A stretch of DNA of 43,690 nt from Robiginitomaculum sp. (GTDB lineage Bacteria > Pseudomonadota > Alphaproteobacteria > Caulobacterales > Maricaulaceae): positions 1 through 43,690 of the forward strand of contig JAESTZ010000015.1 of NCBI GenBank assembly GCA_016763315.1, in the 5' to 3' direction. The position numbers were made by a program, and so were the translations under genes. The notes under the pieces were generated by a model, which was given only the letters and a program-made list of their open reading frames with translations, was not told where the DNA came from and did not search any database. Shown here piece after piece: positions 5,034-37,451 of the stretch. Within the stretch, counting starts at the first letter, position 1, and every line of letters starts with the position of its first letter.

Positions 5034-6107
5034 ATGAGTAAATTTCCGCTTTCTTTGGCCATATCACTTAGTGCAGCTTTACTAGTTGCTGCTTGTGGAA
5101 CCACAAAACCCACTACACAAACTGCTATCAGCAAAAATGGTGAAAGCTATGTTGTACCGGAAGCTCTTGGCGGATTTTCAGATTATGTTCTGGTTGAAAC
5201 CCAAATGGGAAACATTGCTCCACGAATAGTTGATCTTGATTATGTGTTGGCTGACCTGGCTGCTTATGATGTGGTGTTTGTTGGTGAAGCGCATGGCCAT
5301 GTGACTAATCATTACATTCAATCAAAACTGTTTTCCGGCTTACATGAAAAGTCTGCAAACATTGCTTTATCCATGGAGCAGTTTGAACGCAGCCAGCAAA
5401 ACATTGTTGATCAATATTTGGCCTCCGAAATTGGAGAAGAATCTTTGGTTTTTGATGGCAAAGCCTGGCCACATTATCGATCCTCTTATCGACCTTTAGT
5501 CGAATATGCCAAAGATAATAAATTGCCGGTTATTGCCGCTGAAGTTCCAGCCAATATAGTATCCTGCATCAGCGAAAAAGGGCCAGAGTTTCTTGGCGAC
5601 CTACCTGATGAGGCTCAAAACTGGGTAGCAAAAGATCTAGACCTTGAAGACGGTGCTTATAAAGACAAGTTTTACCGCTTCATGGATGCTGCAACCGGTC
5701 ACAGCATCGGCGGCGACCAAAGCGATGAAGATATTGCCCGCAAAAAACTAAACCGCTATGCCGCACAAGTAAGCCGCGATGACACCATGGCCGAAAGCAT
5801 TGCCAAACACATCACCGACAATCCGGGACGCAAAGTCTTTCACATTACCGGCAGTTTTCATTCGGCAGAAATGCTGGGAACTCCGGAGCGGGTTCTAAGC
5901 CGTTTACCGGACTTAAAAGTTGCCAATATCCACCCAATTTTGGTCACTGATCCGAAAAACCCTTCATTTTCAAGCGAAGACCTTAAACAAGGGCGGTATT
6001 TGTTGTTACTGTACCCGGTACCAAAACGCTTTGTGCAAATGAAAAACATCAATGCCTTTATCAAACGCACTCAAGCCAGTCTCGATAAAGACACTTGTGC
6101 TTACTAG
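5034..6107 (+). CDS. ChaN-like lipoprotein (haem/iron-regulated, Tiki/EreA-ChaN superfamily)
   Basis: A 357-residue predicted lipoprotein. The signal peptide ends in the lipobox LVAAC with Cys21 as lipidation site. The mature part carries the ChaN domain: VFVGEAHGHVTNH near residues 81-93, then SMEQFERSQQ, and HITGSFHSAE near residue 275. These His/Glu motifs are those of the ChaN/EreA-like fold, whose bacterial members bind haem. A role in haem or iron acquisition at the outer membrane is likely from the family. It follows the orphan rrn-like leader, which could be its promoter region. GGGG at 5020-5023 is a weak Shine-Dalgarno sequence. No TonB receptor or transporter gene is adjacent. Confidence 0.82.
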   Translation: MSKFPLSLAISLSAALLVAACGTTKPTTQTAISKNGESYVVPEALGGFSDYVLVETQMGNIAPRIVDLDYVLADLAAYDVVFVGEAHGHVTNHYIQSKLFSGLHEKSANIALSMEQFERSQQNIVDQYLASEIGEESLVFDGKAWPHYRSSYRPLVEYAKDNKLPVIAAEVPANIVSCISEKGPEFLGDLPDEAQNWVAKDLDLEDGAYKDKFYRFMDAATGHSIGGDQSDEDIARKKLNRYAAQVSRDDTMAESIAKHITDNPGRKVFHITGSFHSAEMLGTPERVLSRLPDLKVANIHPILVTDPKNPSFSSEDLKQGRYLLLLYPVPKRFVQMKNINAFIKRTQASLDKDTCAY

Positions 6108-21196: not shown

Positions 21197-21792
21197 TTAA
21201 TCAACACACCAAGTTTTTGTAATGCCGTTAATAATGGCAAAAGAGATAAACCAAGCATTGCTGTATAATCACCATCTATTTCCTTAAACAAACAGATTGT
21301 TTCTGCTTCTAACTCATAACAACCAACACTTTTCAAAAGCCGCTCACCGCTTATTCGCATTACTTTATCTAATAGCTGTGGGCTAAACTCATTCATGACC
21401 AGCCTGGATTTCTGCTTATTATTCCAAAGAATTTTTCCATTTCTAGCCAAAACACAAGCACCAACTAAAAAGTGTTCCCGTCCACGTAAACTCCAAAGCC
21501 TGTCTCTTGCTTCTTGCATATTTCTTACTTTATCCAGCGACTTCCCATCTATTTCTAATATCTGGTCGGCGCCAATTACCAGACTGTTGTTTTTTGTAGA
21601 TACAGATAATGCTTTTTCTGACGCGAGCAACATTGCTAGATCAATTGGACTTAAGTTTTGGTTTTTTTGTTTTATTTTTTCTTCATCAACGCTTGACGGA
21701 AGAATAGAAAACTCTAGCCCTGCCGACAACAGAATTTTTTTTCTAATCTGGCTAGCTGAGGCTAGTATTAAAAGATCTTTCTGTATGCTCAT
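21193..21792 (-). CDS. maf: Maf-family nucleotide pyrophosphatase
   Basis: Maf proteins hydrolyse non-canonical or modified nucleoside triphosphates and are linked to septum control. The N-terminal LASASQIRKKILLSAGLEF corresponds to the usual S-A-S-P-R-R signature, with PR changed to QI, so one arginine is kept. VDEEKI, VIGADQILEIDG, ARDRLWSLRGREH and the end EIDGDYTAMLGLSLLPLLTAL support the assignment. It is in the middle of the four-base-overlap operon starting at ppsR. Confidence 0.92.
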   Translation of the reverse strand: MSIQKDLLILASASQIRKKILLSAGLEFSILPSSVDEEKIKQKNQNLSPIDLAMLLASEKALSVSTKNNSLVIGADQILEIDGKSLDKVRNMQEARDRLWSLRGREHFLVGACVLARNGKILWNNKQKSRLVMNEFSPQLLDKVMRISGERLLKSVGCYELEAETICLFKEIDGDYTAMLGLSLLPLLTALQKLGVLIK

Positions 21793-22625
21793 TCCAAAGC
21801 TTCTTTTTCTTGTATCAAAGATAAAATTTTAGCAGATGTTTCTTCTATAGATCGCCTTGTTACATCAATAACCGGCCATTTATGACGAGCAAATAATCTC
21901 TTTGCACTTACCACCTCGTTTCGCACTTCATTTTCGTCCACATAAGCTGTTGAGCGGTGTTCATTCAGTGATAACAAACGATTTCTTCTAATTTGAACCA
22001 GACGCTTAGGGCTCACTGTAAGGCCTATAATTATTGGACCAGTTAGCGTTTCCAGCTCTTTTGGTAAATCAACACCTGGCACTACCGGTATGTTTGCAGC
22101 TTTTACCCCCCTGTTCGCCAAATAAACACATGTTGGTGTTTTTGATGTTCTACTAACCCCGACAATTATTACTTCTGCGTTTTTTAATCTCGTTCCAATT
22201 TGCCCGTCATCATGCATGGTTGCAAAATTCAAAGCATCAATTCGCCGATAATAGTTTTCATTTCTAATATGTTGTGCTCCAGTTTCATGAATTATTGGAG
22301 CCCCTAAATACTGACTCATCGTTTTTAACAGAGGGTCTAATACATCCAAGCAAGGAGTTCCATTTATCGAACACCAGTTTAACAGATTCAACCGTAGTGT
22401 TTCGCTAACCATCGTAAACATTACCAAACCCGGCGCTTGTTCTATAGAGTTCATTACCTGTTCCAACTGCCTGTCAGAACGAATTAAGGCGTGCATATGA
22501 TCTATAGGGATTAACTCTGGAAACTGAGCGCATGTTGCTTTCATAACTCCGGCCAAAGTTTCTCCCGTTGAATCTGAAACCAAGTGCACATGCAGATATA
22601 ATCCGGGTTTTTCGGTAGTGCTCAC
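21789..22625 (-). CDS. ppsR: Pyruvate,phosphate dikinase/PEP synthase regulatory protein (PPSR, DUF299)
   Basis: A bifunctional ADP-dependent kinase and Pi-dependent phosphorylase of the DUF299 family, which controls PPDK or PEP synthase. Motifs are HLVSDSTGETL (about residues 14-24), the P-loop-like VGVSRTSKTPTCVYLANRG, IPVVPGVDLP and the end VIDVTRRSIEETSAKIL. The start is GTG 22625 with AGGG nine bases upstream. In Caulobacter and Rickettsia this gene (RP001-type) lies immediately beside the replication origin, with maf, aroE, coaE and dnaQ behind it. A perfect CtrA-type site is 23-37 bp upstream. Confidence 0.95.
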   Translation of the reverse strand: MSTTEKPGLYLHVHLVSDSTGETLAGVMKATCAQFPELIPIDHMHALIRSDRQLEQVMNSIEQAPGLVMFTMVSETLRLNLLNWCSINGTPCLDVLDPLLKTMSQYLGAPIIHETGAQHIRNENYYRRIDALNFATMHDDGQIGTRLKNAEVIIVGVSRTSKTPTCVYLANRGVKAANIPVVPGVDLPKELETLTGPIIIGLTVSPKRLVQIRRNRLLSLNEHRSTAYVDENEVRNEVVSAKRLFARHKWPVIDVTRRSIEETSAKILSLIQEKEALE

Positions 22626-22647
22626 GGTATAACCCTGTTCATAATTG

Positions 22648-22662
22648 TTAATAAAGTATTAA
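22648..22662. promoter_or_regulatory. CtrA-type binding site (TTAA-N7-TTAA)
   Basis: An exact TTAA-TAAAGTA-TTAA match to the full CtrA consensus, 23 bases from the ppsR start codon and inside the candidate origin. In Caulobacter CtrA binds the origin and blocks initiation. The region is so AT-rich that one chance match is not improbable. Confidence 0.45.
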
Positions 22663-22895
22663 TATAAACGTATTATTTTAATGCATATTCCTAAAAGTTT
22701 TAGTTAACTACGATCTTTGTATTATTATCCTGAAGTTACCAACAAGCAAATTTATACATTTTTCACATTTTTTTTTCACCAAACAATAAAAATACTGTTT
22801 ATTAAAATTTACGTTTGTAAGCTTTTGAACTATCGGCTTTTTTTTAGTTTTGCCTTTCTACTTTTTTAGTTTACTGTTGAATATCTGTTATTAAC

Positions 22896-22904
22896 TTTGG
22901 ATAA
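22896..22904 (-). promoter_or_regulatory. DnaA-box-like 9-mer
   Basis: On the minus strand this reads TTATCCAAA, one mismatch from TTATCCACA. It faces the box at 22910-22918 with five bases between them. Confidence 0.5.
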
Positions 22905-22909
22905 CTTTT

Positions 22910-22918
22910 TTATCAACA
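22910..22918 (+). promoter_or_regulatory. DnaA-box-like 9-mer
   Basis: TTATCAACA, one mismatch from TTATCCACA and a form used in several bacterial origins. Paired with the opposite box at 22896-22904. Confidence 0.5.
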
Positions 22919-23035
22919 AATCTAACAGGCTAAAAAGAACTAAAATTATTTATTTAAAAGTTTTATTAAGTAAAAATAATCTTTGGTTTTTAAAAACTTC
23001 ATACTATTTAAAAAACATCTAATTGTTAAATGGGC

Positions 23036-23064
23036 TTGACGAAAAAATAGCATTATTGTTTAAC
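23036..23064 (+). promoter_or_regulatory. Possible rho promoter
   Basis: TTGACG (23036-23041) and TTTAAC (23059-23064) are separated by 17 bp, about 130 bp before the rho start codon. The -35 is good and the -10 is poor, so this is tentative. Confidence 0.3.
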
Positions 23065-23134
23065 ATAAATTCCTTTCTTGTTTGATCAGGTTTATTTCTT
23101 GGTCTTAATTTAAAAATCATTTTTATTTTCATGA

Positions 23135-23157
23135 TACAGGAATATTTAATTCCTGTA
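23135..23157 (+). promoter_or_regulatory. Hairpin in the rho leader
   Basis: A perfect 9-bp-arm inverted repeat (TACAGGAAT / ATTCCTGTA) with a five-base loop ATTTA ends 37 bp before the rho ATG. It could be an operator or an RNA hairpin in the leader; rho is autoregulated in other bacteria. There is no T run behind it, so it is not a simple terminator. Confidence 0.45.
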
Positions 23158-23194
23158 ATTGTCATGTTTATATTTAATTACATTAGAGAAATTT

Positions 23195-24541
23195 ATGTCT
23201 GATAATATTATCGCTGATAACGTCGATGAAAACAACATTTCTGAAGCCGTAGTGAAATCTACGCTGCCATTTGGTTTGACTAAAATGACAATGGCTGAGT
23301 TAAAAGAAAAGTCGCCAAAAGCTCTTTTAGAATTTGCAGAAAAATTAGAAATTGAAAATGCGTCAACAATGCGCAAACAAGATATGATGTTTGCTATTCT
23401 AAAAGATTTGGCTGAACGTGAGGTCGAAGTATTTGGCCAGGGAACTTTGGAAGTTATGCAAGACGGGTTTGGGTTTTTACGCTCACCTGAAGCTAATTAC
23501 CTTGCTGGTCCTGACGATATATATGTAAGTCCGGCTCAAATTAAAAAAATGGCTTTGCGCACAGGAGATACCGTTGAAGGTGAAATTCGTTCGCCAAGGT
23601 CAGGTGAAAGATATTTTGCTTTAATGAAGGTGACTTTGATTAATTTTGAAGATCCTGAAAAAACACGTCACAAAGTTCATTTTGATAATTTAACTCCTTT
23701 ATATCCTGAAGAACGGATGTATATGGAAACAAAAGATCCAACGAAAAAAGACAGATCTGGACGGGTTATTGATATTGTCTCTCCATTGGGGAAGGGACAA
23801 AGAGCCTTAATTGTTGCACCTCCTAGAACTGGTAAAACTGTTTTGTTACAAAATATCGCTATTGCGATAGCTGAAAACCATCCTGAATGTTTTTTGATAG
23901 TATTGCTTATCGACGAGCGTCCGGAAGAAGTAACAGATATGCAAAGGACAGTAAAAGGCGAGGTCATAGCATCAACTTTTGATGAACCTCCAACCAGACA
24001 TGTACAAATTGCCGAAATGGTAATTGAAAAGGCTAAACGACTTGTTGAACATGGTCGTGATGTGGTGATTTTACTAGATAGTATCACTAGGCTTGGTCGA
24101 GCGTATAACACAGTTGTACCATCGTCTGGAAAGGTCTTAACCGGCGGTGTTGATGCAAACGCCTTACAGAGACCCAAGCGGTTTTTTGGAGCGGCTAGAA
24201 ATATTGAACACGGTGGATCCCTAACTATTATTTCAACAGCTTTGATTGAAACAGGGTCAAGAATGGATGAAGTGATTTTTGAAGAATTTAAAGGTACGGG
24301 TAATTCTGAAATTGTTCTTGATCGGAAGGTTTCTGATAAACGGGTGTTCCCGGCTATTGATGTTACAAAATCAGGAACCAGAAAAGAAGAGCTTATTGTA
24401 CCGGCTGATCAATTAGCAAAAACATTTGTTTTGCGTAGAATTATCAACCCAATGGGAACTATTGATGCCATTGAGTTTTTATTAGAAAAATTGCGGCAAA
24501 CAAAAAATAACGATGAGTTTTTTGATAGTATGAACACTTGA
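23195..24541 (+). CDS. rho: Transcription termination factor Rho
   Basis: A 448-residue hexameric RNA helicase that ends transcription. The N-terminal domain has [21 protein letters not shown]. The RNA-binding OB fold has [23 protein letters not shown]. Walker A is APPRTGKT ([14 protein letters not shown]), and the catalytic region has [18 protein letters not shown] and [13 protein letters not shown], with [26 protein letters not shown] after it. The ATG at 23195 follows AGAGAA; an upstream TTG at 23159 would add residues not seen in Rho proteins. It is the first gene right of the candidate origin, where hemE/hemJ often intervene. Confidence 0.97.
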
Positions 24542-26165: not shown

Positions 26166-27518
26166 ATGAATACAGAACAAGAAAACACTATTTTTGCTTT
26201 GGCGAGCGCGCGAGGACGTTCCGGGATTTCTGTTATACGGATTTCTGGAAACCGTGCATTTGATGTTTTAACTACTCTAAGCAACATCAAACAAATATCA
26301 CCACGGAAAGCGGTTTTAACTAATATTGTTTCACGTGAAACAAAAGAAAAAATAGACGAGGTTATTAGTCTTGCCTTTAAAGCGCCAAATAGTTTTACTG
26401 GTGAAAATGTTATAGAGCTTCATTGTCATGGCAGCGTTGCTGTTCTTGATGCTCTGTTTGAAGAGCTCTTGTCTTTTGGCTTGCGACCGGCCGAGCCTGG
26501 AGAGTTTACTAAGCGTGCTTTTAATAATAACCGTTTGGATTTGATACAGGCTGAAGGATTGGCGGACCTAATAGACGCCAGAACACGATCACAGAGACAG
26601 CAAGCATTACAACAAATGAGCGGTAACTTAAGCCAACAAATAAGTGTCTGGAGGGGGTTGTTGCTTTCTGTTCAAGCCCGGGTTGAGGCTGAAATTGATT
26701 TTCCAGATGAAGAAGATGTGTCAGGAAATTTTGCACAGCAGGTTTTACCTGACTTAACCTCTTTGATAAAAAACCTGCAGCAACAATTACAATTTTCTGC
26801 TAGCAAGCAAAAAATCCGGGATGGTTTAGTAATCGCGCTAATTGGTGGTGTTAATTCAGGAAAGTCCACACTTTTAAATACCTTAGCTGGTGAAGATCGG
26901 GTAATTGTCTCTGATCAACCGGGAACAACACGCGATATTGTAGAGGTTCAATTACAAATCGGTGGATACATGGTTAGCCTTGCTGATACGGCTGGTTTGC
27001 GAGAGTCAAAAAATATTATTGAAAAAGAAGGTATTCGAAGGGCGCAGACTTTAGCTGAAACGGCAGACATTAGGGTGTTTTTGTTTGATGGAGCGCAGCA
27101 CCATGAAGGATTAGCCGCTGATGTGCTAAAATATAAAAACCCCGGAGACCTTGTGGTTTACAACAAGGTGGATTTAAGTGGTTTTTCAGTAAAGTCACCT
27201 GATGGCTTGATTGTTTCTGCTAAAACCGGTGAAGGAATATCAGGCTTGTTTGCTGCGATAAAGTCTAGGGTAATCGATATTCTTTCTGTTTCTGAAACAC
27301 CGGGGCTTACTAGGTCAAGGCACGTACAAACCGTTACTTCGGCTTTGGTTTCTTTGGTGGCAGCAAAAGAGCAGCTAGAAAATCAAGATGGTTCTCGGCC
27401 AGAACTGGTTGCTGAAGGCTTGCGGGAAGCGGGACGGCATTTGGGGTTGTTGCTTGGTGATATTCATTCAGAGCAGGTGCTAGATGAAATTTTTAGTGGT
27501 TTTTGTATAGGGAAGTAA
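26166..27518 (+). CDS. mnmE: tRNA uridine-5-carboxymethylaminomethyl(34) GTPase MnmE
   Basis: A 450-residue GTPase which, with MnmG, makes the cmnm5 group at wobble U34 of certain tRNAs. The N-terminal folate-binding domain has IFALASARGRSGISVIRISG and ENVIELHCHGS. The helical and G domains follow: the P-loop reads GGVNSGKSTLLN (usual form G-x-P-N-x-G-K-S), switch II is DTAGLRES, and YNKVD is the NKxD motif. The C-terminal CIGK is the catalytic cysteine motif, fully intact. A perfect parS palindrome is embedded at 26327-26342 where the protein reads NIVSRETK. Confidence 0.96.
   Translation: MNTEQENTIFALASARGRSGISVIRISGNRAFDVLTTLSNIKQISPRKAVLTNIVSRETKEKIDEVISLAFKAPNSFTGENVIELHCHGSVAVLDALFEELLSFGLRPAEPGEFTKRAFNNNRLDLIQAEGLADLIDARTRSQRQQALQQMSGNLSQQISVWRGLLLSVQARVEAEIDFPDEEDVSGNFAQQVLPDLTSLIKNLQQQLQFSASKQKIRDGLVIALIGGVNSGKSTLLNTLAGEDRVIVSDQPGTTRDIVEVQLQIGGYMVSLADTAGLRESKNIIEKEGIRRAQTLAETADIRVFLFDGAQHHEGLAADVLKYKNPGDLVVYNKVDLSGFSVKSPDGLIVSAKTGEGISGLFAAIKSRVIDILSVSETPGLTRSRHVQTVTSALVSLVAAKEQLENQDGSRPELVAEGLREAGRHLGLLLGDIHSEQVLDEIFSGFCIGK
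26327..26342. promoter_or_regulatory. parS: parS centromere site 1 (inside mnmE)
   Basis: TGTTTCACGTGAAACA, a perfect 16-bp palindrome identical to the bacterial parS consensus bound by ParB. It lies in the mnmE reading frame, encoding IVSRET. Confidence 0.92.
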
Positions 27519-27529
27519 CTAAGAGAAAT

Positions 27530-27545
27530 TGTTTCACGTGAAACA
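27530..27545. promoter_or_regulatory. parS: parS centromere site 2 (mnmE-mnmG intergenic)
   Basis: An identical TGTTTCACGTGAAACA, 12 bp after the mnmE stop and before mnmG. Confidence 0.93.
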
Positions 27546-29488: not shown

Positions 29489-30108
29489 CAGAAGATAAGG
29501 CAATTAAGTGTTTATTAGACATTGTTTCACGTGAAACATTTCAAAAGTTTGAAATTATTCAACAACAGTTAATCCTGTGGTCAAAGCGGTTTAATTTGGT
29601 TGCGCCGTCAAGTTTGCCCCAGTTTTGGGCAAGACACGTGCTTGATAGTGTGCAATTATATGACTTAGCACCAAAGTCGGCTAAAAGCTGGCTTGACCTT
29701 GGCTCTGGTGCTGGTTTTCCGGGAATTATTTTGGCCATTATGATAATGCAGCGACCTGGAGCAAAAATGACTTTGATTGAAGCAAATGGAAAAAAAGCAA
29801 ACTTTTTAAAACATTGTGCAAGAGAGGTCGGAGCTCCAGCGCAGGTGTTACAACAGCGAATTGAAGTTGTTGCACCATTTACTGCGGAGGTTATTACCGC
29901 GCGCGCGTTGTCTTCATTGTCTGGCTTGTTGGAGTATTCATTGCCTTTTTCTGATAAAAACACATTGTTGGTTTTACCAAAAGGCAAGCAGGTTGAAGCA
30001 GAGCTTTCTGTGGCTCAAAATAGCTGGAAACTAGAACACTCAAACCATTCAAGTATTACAGATAACGAGGCAAGTATTTTATGTATCAGGGGATTTAGTC
30101 GTGTCTGA
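29485..30108 (+). CDS. rsmG: 16S rRNA m7G527 methyltransferase RsmG (GidB)
   Basis: A 207-residue SAM-dependent methyltransferase that makes m7G527 in 16S rRNA. The SAM motif is [17 protein letters not shown] near residues 70-86. The family markers [22 protein letters not shown] and [19 protein letters not shown] are present, then [15 protein letters not shown] perfect parS palindrome is embedded at 29523-29538, encoding IVSRET near residue 15. It overlaps mnmG by four bases and parA by eight. Confidence 0.95.
29523..29538. promoter_or_regulatory. parS: parS centromere site 3 (inside rsmG)
   Basis: A third identical TGTTTCACGTGAAACA, in the 5' part of rsmG in the frame that encodes IVSRET, 563 bp before the parA start. 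Confidence 0.92.
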
Positions 30109-30913
30109 AGATAGTGCCGCCGGTTTACGGGTTTTAGCTGTGGTTAATCAAAAAGGGGGTGTTGGTAAAACCACTACAACGATTAATTTAGCAACAGCTT
30201 TGGCCGCTATCGGCCAAAAAACCTTGATACTGGATATTGACCCACAAGGAAACGCCTCTACAGGTCTTGGGGTTGCTCCGGCGCAACGAAATAAAACCAC
30301 ATATGATGTTTTAATTAAAGAAGAAAACTTATCAGAAGCTATAATGACAACAATAGTGCCAAATTTAAGTTTGGTTCCCGCGCACTATGACCTAGCTGGT
30401 GTGGAGCTGGAGTTGGCGAGCGCTCCGCGTCGTTCTTATCGTATAAAACTGGCGGTGGAAGAGCTTTCGAAGCATACAGACCTGAATTACATTTTAATTG
30501 ATTGCCCTCCGTCTTTGAATGTTTTGACCGTAAATGCGCTAACAGCCGCCGATGCGCTATTGGTACCATTACAGTGTGAATTTTTCGCTCTTGAGGGCTT
30601 ATCACAACTTTTGCGAACGGTTGATTTAGTGCGCTCTAGTTTAAATCCGAAGCTAAGTATTCAGGGCATTGTGCTAACTATGTATGATGGGCGGAACAAT
30701 TTGGCGCGGCAGGTAAGCTCTGACGTACGCAAACATTTTGGAGACTTAGTTTATCAAACAATGATTCCACGCAATGTGCGAATTTCTGAAGCTCCGGGGT
30801 TTGGTAAGCCGGCTTTAATTTATGACCACTCTTGTGTTGGCAGTAAGGCTTATATGCGTTTGGCTAGCGAGTTAATACGGCGCGAACAAATAGAAATAGG
30901 GGTAAGTGTATGA
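30101..30913 (+). CDS. parA: Chromosome partitioning ATPase ParA
   Basis: A 270-residue ParA/Soj ATPase. The deviant Walker A is VNQKGGVGKTTTTINLA (about residues 16-32); Walker A' LILDIDPQGNASTGLG and Walker B YILIDCPPSLNVLTVNAL follow. QGIVLTMYDGRNNLARQVSSDVR and IPRNVRISEAPGFGKP are standard. The start is GTG 30101 with AGGGG upstream, inside the end of rsmG. ParA moves ParB-parS complexes and so segregates the origin region. It overlaps parB by four bases. Confidence 0.96.
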   Translation: MSEDSAAGLRVLAVVNQKGGVGKTTTTINLATALAAIGQKTLILDIDPQGNASTGLGVAPAQRNKTTYDVLIKEENLSEAIMTTIVPNLSLVPAHYDLAGVELELASAPRRSYRIKLAVEELSKHTDLNYILIDCPPSLNVLTVNALTAADALLVPLQCEFFALEGLSQLLRTVDLVRSSLNPKLSIQGIVLTMYDGRNNLARQVSSDVRKHFGDLVYQTMIPRNVRISEAPGFGKPALIYDHSCVGSKAYMRLASELIRREQIEIGVSV

Positions 30914-31791
30914 GTAAATCTGGAAAACAAAGCGGCTTAGGTCGTGGACTGTCTGCGTTGTTGGGTGAGTTTCCCGAAATAGAGAGCTCTGGTGCTGTAG
31001 ATCAAAAACCAGTTTCATTGCCGATTGATTTAATACAACGAAACCCTGATCAACCAAGGCGGTATTTTGCCGAAGCTAAAATGCAGCAATTGGTTGATTC
31101 AGTAAAGAAGCAAGGCGTTTTACAGCCAATTCTTGTGCGACCAATAGTTGGAACAACTAAATATCAACTAGTTGCCGGTGAGCGGCGGTGGCGAGCTGCT
31201 GGTCAGGCCGGTCTACATGATATTCCTGTGTATGTTAGGGAACTTTCCGATCGGCAGGTTGCAGAAATTGCTTTGGTGGAAAACATTCAGCGGGTTGACT
31301 TAAATCCAATAGAGGAGGGGCGTGGGTATCATGTTTTAATGAAGCAGTTTCACCACACACAAGAAGAGGTGGCAAAAGCTGTTGCAAAAAGCCGCTCTCA
31401 CATTGCAAATACAGTGCGCTTGCTTGATTTACCGAAAAGTGTACAGGAGCATCTTGTTAAGGGTGATTTGACGGCTGGTCATGCTAGGGCACTGTTATCT
31501 GCAAAAGATGCTTTATCTTTAGCGCGGCGGGTGATTGAGGCTGGATTAAGTGTTCGTCAAACAGAAAACATGGTTCGGGAAAGCCTGTCGGCTCCGGAAA
31601 TAAAAAGCCGAAAGAACAAAGACATACAAATTAAAGATCCAGACATACGTGCTCTAGAGGCGCAATTAAGCGATGCTCTCGGGTTGGTGGTTGCGGTTGA
31701 GCAAAAAACTCCGACAAAAGGGGTTTTGCGCCTTGAATATCAAACACTAGAACAACTTGATGATTTGTGCCGGCGCTTGAACTCTATTTAA
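30910..31791 (+). CDS. parB: Chromosome partitioning protein ParB
   Basis: A 293-residue CTPase clamp and DNA-binding protein. The N-terminal KQSGLGRGLSALLGE is typical. The CTP-binding regions are RNPDQPRRYF and LVAGERRWRAA (GERRxRA motif), followed by VAEIALVENIQRVDLNPIEEG. The helix-turn-helix is TQEEVAKAVAKSRSHIANTVRLLDLP. The C-terminal dimerisation domain is ALEAQLSDALGLVVAVEQ, ending in LEQLDDLCRRL. The parS motif it should recognise occurs three times just upstream. It ends three bases from the convergent holA stop. Confidence 0.96.
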   Translation: MSKSGKQSGLGRGLSALLGEFPEIESSGAVDQKPVSLPIDLIQRNPDQPRRYFAEAKMQQLVDSVKKQGVLQPILVRPIVGTTKYQLVAGERRWRAAGQAGLHDIPVYVRELSDRQVAEIALVENIQRVDLNPIEEGRGYHVLMKQFHHTQEEVAKAVAKSRSHIANTVRLLDLPKSVQEHLVKGDLTAGHARALLSAKDALSLARRVIEAGLSVRQTENMVRESLSAPEIKSRKNKDIQIKDPDIRALEAQLSDALGLVVAVEQKTPTKGVLRLEYQTLEQLDDLCRRLNSI

Positions 31792-32832: not shown

Positions 32833-33329
32833 TTGTTTTTGTCAACACTTAAAAAATAATGCCCAAGTTGGTCAAGAACAGTATCTGCAAGAATGGAAAT
32901 GGCGCGGTTTTCAGCATCGGTTTCAGCGACTTGCGAAGCATAAGGGCTAGCACCAGAATCAAAGGATGTGGTGCTGGTAGAGGTTTTGCCGGTTAAAACG
33001 CTGCCCTCTTCATCAAGTAAAGTCCAGTTTGCGGTCATTTGCACCTGAAATCTGGTTGCAACGTTATCAACCCTGATGCCAAAGCCACGGCGTGCTGGTT
33101 GTAGCTTTACTTGTAACTGGTATTTACCGCTTTCACCGCTTGTTATGCCGCCGCGATCTAAAATTTCTTGTGTAAAAACAAAACCCTCTCGCCCAGATAT
33201 CGGGCTTATTTGAATTTGATTAAAAGCAATGCGGGCGGCGCTTTTTTCGGCATAAATTGGAGTAAAGCCGGCACAAGATACAAGCGTGAATAGAAAAACT
33301 AAAAAAAACGGTAATAATAACTTTTTCAT
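32829..33329 (-). CDS. lptE: LPS-assembly lipoprotein LptE
   Basis: A 166-residue outer-membrane lipoprotein that plugs LptD for lipopolysaccharide export. The signal peptide ends in LVSC (Cys19), followed by the beta-sandwich segment FTPIYAEKSA...FNQIQISPISGREGFVFTQEILDR and NVATRFQVQMTANWTLLDEEG, then SFDSGASPYASQVAETDAENRA. The ATG at 33329 is one base after the leuS stop; a longer frame from 33344 would overlap leuS. Context between leuS and holA supports the call. Confidence 0.9.
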   Translation of the reverse strand: MKKLLLPFFLVFLFTLVSCAGFTPIYAEKSAARIAFNQIQISPISGREGFVFTQEILDRGGITSGESGKYQLQVKLQPARRGFGIRVDNVATRFQVQMTANWTLLDEEGSVLTGKTSTSTTSFDSGASPYASQVAETDAENRAISILADTVLDQLGHYFLSVDKNK

Positions 33330-37004: not shown

Positions 37005-37451
37005 GTGAGAACGTTGCGGCAAATTTTAGCAATGGCGGGACTTTGGCTCGCTGCCAGCACGCTGGCTTTGGCAACGGAGCCAGAGCCGGTAAAAAACGTG
37101 CTGCCAGCGACTAGCGCTGAACTTCCTTGGTATCGTTCATTTACTTTGCGTAGTGCTGAAATTGAAGATGGCGCTTTTATGCGGCTTAAAAAACCAGATG
37201 TGGAGTTTCGGGCAGGCAATCAATGGGGTCTTTCGGTTGGTATGAACGAGCAAGGTACGTTGTTAGAGTCTCGTGATCGTATGAGCGCAGGAGCCTTTTA
37301 CGAGTTTTCACCAAGGTTTCGTTTAGGTGGAGAGTTAAGTTTTGTTGCTCCGGGGGAGTTACGCATTTCTACTCCACAAGAGAGTCTTTTGCCCGTTAGT
37401 CCAGCTGACGAGCAACCTCGAGTACGAATTGAATCATCAATTAAATTTTAG
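37005..37451 (+). CDS. NtrZ-like periplasmic regulatory protein
   Basis: A 148-residue exported protein. The signal peptide is predicted to be cut after ALA23. The mature part has the pattern WGLSVGMNEQ, then SAGAFYEFSPRFRLGGELSF, and the end EQPRVRIESSIKF. This matches the alphaproteobacterial NtrZ family, a periplasmic inhibitor of the NtrY/NtrX two-component system in Caulobacter. No ntrYX is in the window. The start follows AAGGAG at good distance. Its 3' end overlaps the convergent thiE-like gene by 11 bp. Assignment rests on a short C-terminal domain and is moderate. Confidence 0.65.
   Translation: MRTLRQILAMAGLWLAASTLALATEPEPVKNVLPATSAELPWYRSFTLRSAEIEDGAFMRLKKPDVEFRAGNQWGLSVGMNEQGTLLESRDRMSAGAFYEFSPRFRLGGELSFVAPGELRISTPQESLLPVSPADEQPRVRIESSIKF

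Follow-up and report, generated by a model that had tools for sequence, protein, structure and literature searches.

The 569-bp gap between ppsR and rho in the window, by which we mean the whole 43,690-nucleotide stretch of Robiginitomaculum sp. DNA analyzed here, is very probably the chromosomal replication origin (oriC), at a place known to hold origins in alphaproteobacteria. The element belongs to a known kind and differs at one border: hemE is gone, and rho lies beside the origin. An earlier sequence-only reading of this DNA had proposed an origin in this gap, and had missed that the usual border gene is hemE rather than rho, and that hemE is not found in the genome. Position, composition, a switch in GC skew, conservation, and a cluster of parS sites all point to this assignment, which places the origin of an alphaproteobacterial lineage. 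The features discussed below are collected in Table 1.

Table 1. Features of the gap between ppsR and rho and of its surroundings (positions in the window).
Feature	Position	Strand	Basis and remarks
ppsR (COG1806/DUF299), border gene of Caulobacter-type origins	21789-22625	-	Pfam PF03618 (Kinase-PPPase), E 3e-86
Candidate oriC, AT-rich gap	22626-23194		22.0% GC; window skew minimum inside; corresponds to the position of the ppsR-hemE gap of relatives
CtrA-type site TTAA-N7-TTAA, TTAATAAAGTATTAA	22648-22662	+	Exact match; predicted binding site; core of conserved 16-mer 22647-22662
Weak DnaA box TTATCCAAA	22896-22904	-	One mismatch from TTATCCACA; aligned with TTATTCAAA in close relative G009
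Conserved island, DnaA boxes and A-rich tract	22896-22955		90-93% identity to G009 (30-column windows)
Weak DnaA box TTATCAACA	22910-22918	+	One mismatch; close relative G009 has exact TTATCCACA here
Probable DNA-unwinding element	22930-22979		Least stable 50 bp of window (nearest-neighbor stability); same relative place in G009
Second TTAA-N7-TTAA site, weak	22955-22969	-	One mismatch; rule from the accessible part of PMC1914354; predicted binding site
Probable rho promoter/leader, conserved island at right of gap	23031-23194	+	77-93% identity to G009 (30-column windows); putative promoter role
rho, right border	23195-24541	+	Pfam Rho_N, Rho_RNA_bind
parS 1, GTTTCACGTGAAAC	26328-26341		Exact 14-mer match
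parS 2	27531-27544		Exact 14-mer match
parS 3	29524-29537		Exact 14-mer match
parA	30101-30913	+	Pfam AAA_31 and related
parB	30910-31791	+	Pfam ParB_N, HTH_ParB, ParB_C

The gap is bounded by 2 divergent start codons, a GTG for ppsR at 22625 (-) and an ATG for rho at 23195 (+). Its GC content of 22.0% compares with 43.2% for the whole window; outside the gap, the lowest-GC stretch of 500 bp has 33.8%, and the 60-base line of the window with the lowest GC content (9 G/C, starting at 22921) falls within it. Scans for Rfam families (at the gathering threshold) and for tRNAs gave no match in 22626-23194, and no ATG-started open reading frame (ORF) of 90 or more amino acids is present in the gap. 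The description of this gap as the longest very AT-rich non-coding stretch of the window, free of genes and flanked by diverging ones, was therefore borne out, coordinates of the flanking genes included. To the left, ppsR is followed by maf, aroE, coaE, and dnaQ, all on the - strand, and then by secB (+); to the right, rho is followed by genes for GST and GDPD (-), mnmE, gidA, gidB, parA, and parB. The ppsR-maf-aroE-coaE-dnaQ order is as the sequence-only reading had it, and the site on the ppsR side is the known position of alphaproteobacterial origins, according to the accessible part of PMC1914354. Similar flanking gene orders were found at loci of Phenylobacterium and Brevundimonas (L002, L013-L014), and 2 genomes of the window's order (G034 and G038) match a Phenylobacterium locus at rho (85-88% over ~1.3 kb), which makes Caulobacterales the probable order. 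The same window also carries Pfam matches to TrcR (transcriptional cell cycle regulator) and NtrZ, at 100-771 and 37005-37451.

In Caulobacter, the origin has been located experimentally in the gap between ppsR (COG1806) and hemE, where that of Rickettsia has been predicted as well (in the part of PMC1914354 available to us). The gap described here resembles the Cori of Caulobacter crescentus in that it adjoins ppsR (COG1806/CC_0001), is intergenic, and has an AT content above that of the genome (same part of PMC1914354). Further shared features are the presence of TTAA-N7-TTAA sites, weak DnaA boxes, and parS within ~8 kb; for Caulobacter, parS is placed within 8 kb of the origin (available parts of PMC1914354 and PMC4468827). 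Unlike Cori, the other border is formed by rho instead of hemE, the CtrA-type sites number one exact and one with a mismatch rather than five, and no TGATCCACA G-box was found in the gap within one mismatch. The predicted origin of Rickettsia prowazekii (hemE/COG1806) is likewise bordered by ppsR and measures 384 bp with 82.6% AT, as given in the same excerpt; hemE has been retained there, while it was not found in the window's genome. The literature that we searched contained no origin bordered by ppsR and rho, which is not proof of absence.

The cumulative GC skew of the window reaches its minimum at 23019. Since the genes diverge from the gap, third-codon-position skew was split by strand, using 36 of the 74 listed ORFs, which were picked as likely genes (some of them without a Pfam match, and rho taken from its ATG). 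Left of the gap, this skew, read on the + strand, was -0.19 for + genes and -0.23 for - genes, and right of the gap it was +0.27 and +0.11, respectively. As the sign changes for genes of both strands, the switch tracks position and not gene direction alone. The assembly of the window's genome consists of 122 contigs, so that its own skew was computed over contigs and not over a whole chromosome. In G014, which belongs to the same genus and is 99% complete, a 316-kb contig has its minimum at 101768, only 141 bp from the equivalent gap. Sixteen stretches of 20 kb sampled along a 703-kb contig of G011 were negative up to the gap (11 of 11) and positive beyond it (5 of 5), with a local minimum ~1 kb from the gap. 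In G018, which consists of one contig, the sampled curve drops from ~1.5 Mb to ~3.1 Mb and then climbs unevenly; in a densely sampled 400-kb stretch, the minimum (3115593) is found 35 kb away from the gap, and this looser fit counts against the assignment. When regions of 15-25 kb were compared for the window, 2 copies from the close relative G009, and 14 other relatives, the minimum lay in the gap in 9 of these 17 regions, including the window and both G009 copies, and no more than 1.05 kb away in 16. The exception, which also counts against, is G020, where the minimum of a 20-kb region is 8.2 kb from the gap. The proposal of an origin is thus supported by a skew minimum in the window's own gap and, for most of the relatives examined, by one that falls at or close to the equivalent gap.

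Three exact copies of the 14-mer GTTTCACGTGAAAC, which we take to be the parS consensus, are present in the 2.52-Mb assembly. All of them lie in the window, beside parAB and 3.1-6.3 kb from the gap, and a control pattern had no match anywhere in the assembly. The earlier statement that parS and parAB are found nearby therefore holds, with both genes identified by their Pfam domains.

The adjacency of the gap to rho can be traced to the loss of genes that are present in relatives. Among 41 genomes, including the window's own, ppsR was found in 39 and hemE in 37. The 2 genes stand head to head on one contig, a few hundred base pairs apart, in 35 of the 37 genomes with hemE; G034 and G039, where they are on separate contigs (both near contig ends in G039), count against this pattern. 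The search did not find hemE in the window's genome, G009 (73% complete), G008 (70% complete, without a ppsR or rho match), or G019 (without a ppsR match). In the window's assembly, which is 92% complete, neither hemB nor hemH was found either; outside the locus, this search covered hemE, hemH, and hemB. Among 8 genomes tested, hemB was present in 5 (not found in the window's genome, G009, or G006, the last of which is 77% complete) and hemH in 4 (not found in the window's genome, G009, G008, or G019). Given these levels of completeness, the absence of the hem genes from the window's genome and from G009 is likely, not proven.

Between its gap and rho, G014 has ORFs for hemE, hemH, and a UPF0093 protein, the last presumably hemJ. 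The distance between ppsR and rho is 2.96-3.12 kb in 11 hemE-bearing regions of the same genus, against 565-570 bp in the window and both copies of G009. With the hem genes that stand between ppsR and rho in relatives gone from this locus, the gap adjoins rho directly. The simplest history, as read from these sequences, would be a clean loss of the hem genes that left the origin and the rho leader behind. One consequence is that the common rule of looking for an origin between hemE and ppsR breaks down in genomes that have lost hemE, and that ppsR together with a parS cluster forms a safer set of markers.

A comparison with 80 named loci, among at least 591 matches listed, gave a ppsR match in at least 40. 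Among the matches listed, at least 35 of the named loci with ppsR also matched hemE, 3 (L019, L022, and L025) matched the UPF0093 gene only, and 2, L027 from Bartonella florencae and L081 from an unclassified bin, matched none of hemE, hemH, and the UPF0093 gene. The Bartonella locus closely parallels that of the window, with ppsR, a 579-bp gap at 22% GC, and rho. We take Bartonella to belong to the Rhizobiales/Hyphomicrobiales, an order different from that of the window, and the loss of its hem genes was therefore probably a separate one. As Bartonella, a haem auxotroph, has it too, the same collapse of ppsR onto rho seems to have occurred at least twice. Haem auxotrophy of the Bartonellae is described in the available parts of PMC3365110 and PMC3483173.

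The exact CtrA consensus that had been reported for the gap, TTAATAAAGTATTAA at 22648, is the sole exact TTAA-N7-TTAA in the window. A chance match to this pattern appeared in 36% of 1000 first-order trials with resampled gap sequence, so a single match alone is to be expected by chance this often, and the site owes its weight to conservation. An exact TTAA-N7-TTAA was found in all 17 compared gaps; in 16 it lies 21-70 bp from the ppsR end, and in G018 it is elsewhere in the gap. The 16-mer around the site, GTTAAYAAARYRTTAA, occurs in 15 of the 41 genomes, one copy each and always 22-61 bp from the ppsR match; as the 16-mer was drawn from these gap sequences, its proximity to ppsR is partly by construction, while its single-copy status is not. 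Carriers are G020 and, within the genus, 14 of 18 genomes, among them the window's; G020 is the only one of 7 same-family genomes of other genera to have it, and none of the 16 order-level relatives does. Read backwards as a control, the 16-mer had 1 match in the 41 genomes. Within the genus, the exact 16-mer is missing from G008, G009, G012, and G016, and near variants sit at the same place in the last 3 of these. In named alphaproteobacteria, the 16-mer was found in part only. Judged by sequence, no element of the gap is better kept across the genus than the single CtrA-type site, which could also serve as an operator of ppsR. The assembly encodes a CtrA-like protein with 81% identity to a Caulobacter sequence used as the query. 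For IHF, the strict pattern WATCAANNNNTTR had no match in the gap, and the looser rule WATCAN5WTR, taken from the accessible part of PMC1914354, had one, at 23124 (-), against 17 across the window.

The DnaA boxes are less conspicuous. The window contains 15 sites that differ from TTATCCACA by one mismatch and no exact ones; 2 of the 15 lie in the gap, at 22896 (-) and 22910 (+), in the opposed arrangement that had been claimed. Resampled gap sequence (first-order, 1000 trials) had a mean of 0.16 such boxes and 2 or more in 1.8% of trials, so that at P 0.018 the pair is only moderately above chance. An exact TTATCCACA is present in 12 of the 17 compared gaps, the window's not being among them, and this lack is a point against an origin. 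The candidate unwinding element begins at 22930, 12 bp past the second box. In 14 of the 17 regions, the gap contains the region's least stable 50 bp; in G013, G018, and G020 these lie outside it, which counts against the assignment. Between the window and G009, the gap has an overall identity of 72.9% and reaches 97% at 22626-22655. At four-fold sites, identity is 51-70% for rho, parA, mnmE, and parB, the genes covered by this comparison; gidA, whose lengths differ, was left out. A DnaA-trio reading of the A-rich tract (compare the accessible part of PMC8287927) was given a look by eye only and is not claimed.

From these elements, a course of initiation can be proposed. DnaA would bind the weak opposed boxes (22896-22918) and spread into the adjoining A-rich tract (~22930-22980), which would melt and let the helicase load. 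Upon firing, forks would proceed both ways, along an arm with ppsR-maf-aroE-coaE-dnaQ and an arm with rho-mnmE-gidAB-parAB. The CtrA-type site beside ppsR would probably let CtrA block initiation in one cell type or under one condition, and the ParABS cluster 3-9 kb away would then segregate the new origin. Tentatively, and with distinctly less than even confidence, we suggest that the fixed part of the origin in this genus is one CtrA-type site (GTTAAYAAARYRTTAA and its near variants) at the ppsR edge and not an array of DnaA boxes. CtrA may then gate initiation through a single strong site, with DnaA boxes drifting even to the point where no exact box is left, and the origin would have survived when its original border genes disappeared along with haem synthesis. 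With its single conserved site, this origin provides a simple natural setting for the question of whether CtrA needs more than one site to control an origin.

If the gap were merely an AT-rich divergent promoter region, the origin might lie near dnaA, as in many other bacteria. The dnaA gene is indeed on another contig (C32), which has a small skew minimum of its own at 33041, ~2.5 kb past the dnaA frame, but this minimum falls at a pair of divergent genes, 3 kb short of the end of the contig. G014 shows no clear skew minimum at dnaA across the surrounding 80 kb, and in the one-contig G018, dnaA is ~300 kb from the ppsR-hemE gap and the cumulative skew climbs through it. Together with the lack of any exact parS outside the window, this makes an origin at dnaA very unlikely. 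The sequence-only reading had named a better box cluster near dnaA on another contig as evidence that would speak against the gap. No comparable signal was seen at dnaA, but better boxes do occur elsewhere: the assembly has 51 exact TTATNCACA boxes, of which just 2 pairs are spaced within 60 bp, at C16:26221/26233 and C26:14451/14488. These match better than the boxes of the gap, and at the C26 pair the skew shifts from clearly negative to nearly zero. A change from negative to positive skew is seen at neither pair, however, and their locations, between rplI and dnaB (C16) and just upstream of mraZ (C26), put them at likely promoters. For Cori itself, the DnaA boxes are reported to be weaker than those of some Caulobacter promoters (available part of PMC4468827), and we regard an origin at either pair as extremely improbable.

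It could also be argued that the gap consists of decayed remains of hem genes and promoters, with the origin elsewhere within a few kilobases. The hem genes are missing at exactly the position of the gap, and its 569 bp exceed the 332-490 bp of the ppsR-hemE gaps of 14 relatives. This extra length, however, fits an origin plus the rho leader, and no ATG-started ORF of 90 or more amino acids remains. The islands with the box block and the CtrA-type site have been kept between the window's genome and G009, in neither of which hemE was found, and in the window and both copies of G009 the skew minimum falls in the gap itself. We thus give this explanation hardly any credence, and retain the gap between ppsR and rho as the origin.

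Several further observations were made along the way. The lack of detected hemE, hemB, and hemH in the window's genome and G009 suggests that these bacteria are haem auxotrophs, and a gene for a ChaN-type haem-binding uptake protein is present in the window at 5034-6107. G009 holds 2 ppsR-rho loci (L150 on C2 and L151 on C20), one of which has many ambiguous bases, perhaps reflecting 2 mixed strains. In the unclassified alphaproteobacterial bin (L081, 5313-6000), ppsR and rho are 689 bp apart without a hem match, at 52% GC. Finally, both exact box pairs may be of interest in their own right. The pair at G000:C16:26221-26241 (L167) consists of 2 exact TTATCCACA boxes that share a strand and are 12 bp apart, which suggests control of the replicative helicase gene dnaB by DnaA, while the pair at G000:C26:14451-14496 (L168) consists of opposed exact DnaA boxes directly upstream of mraZ, the gene that usually opens the division cluster.
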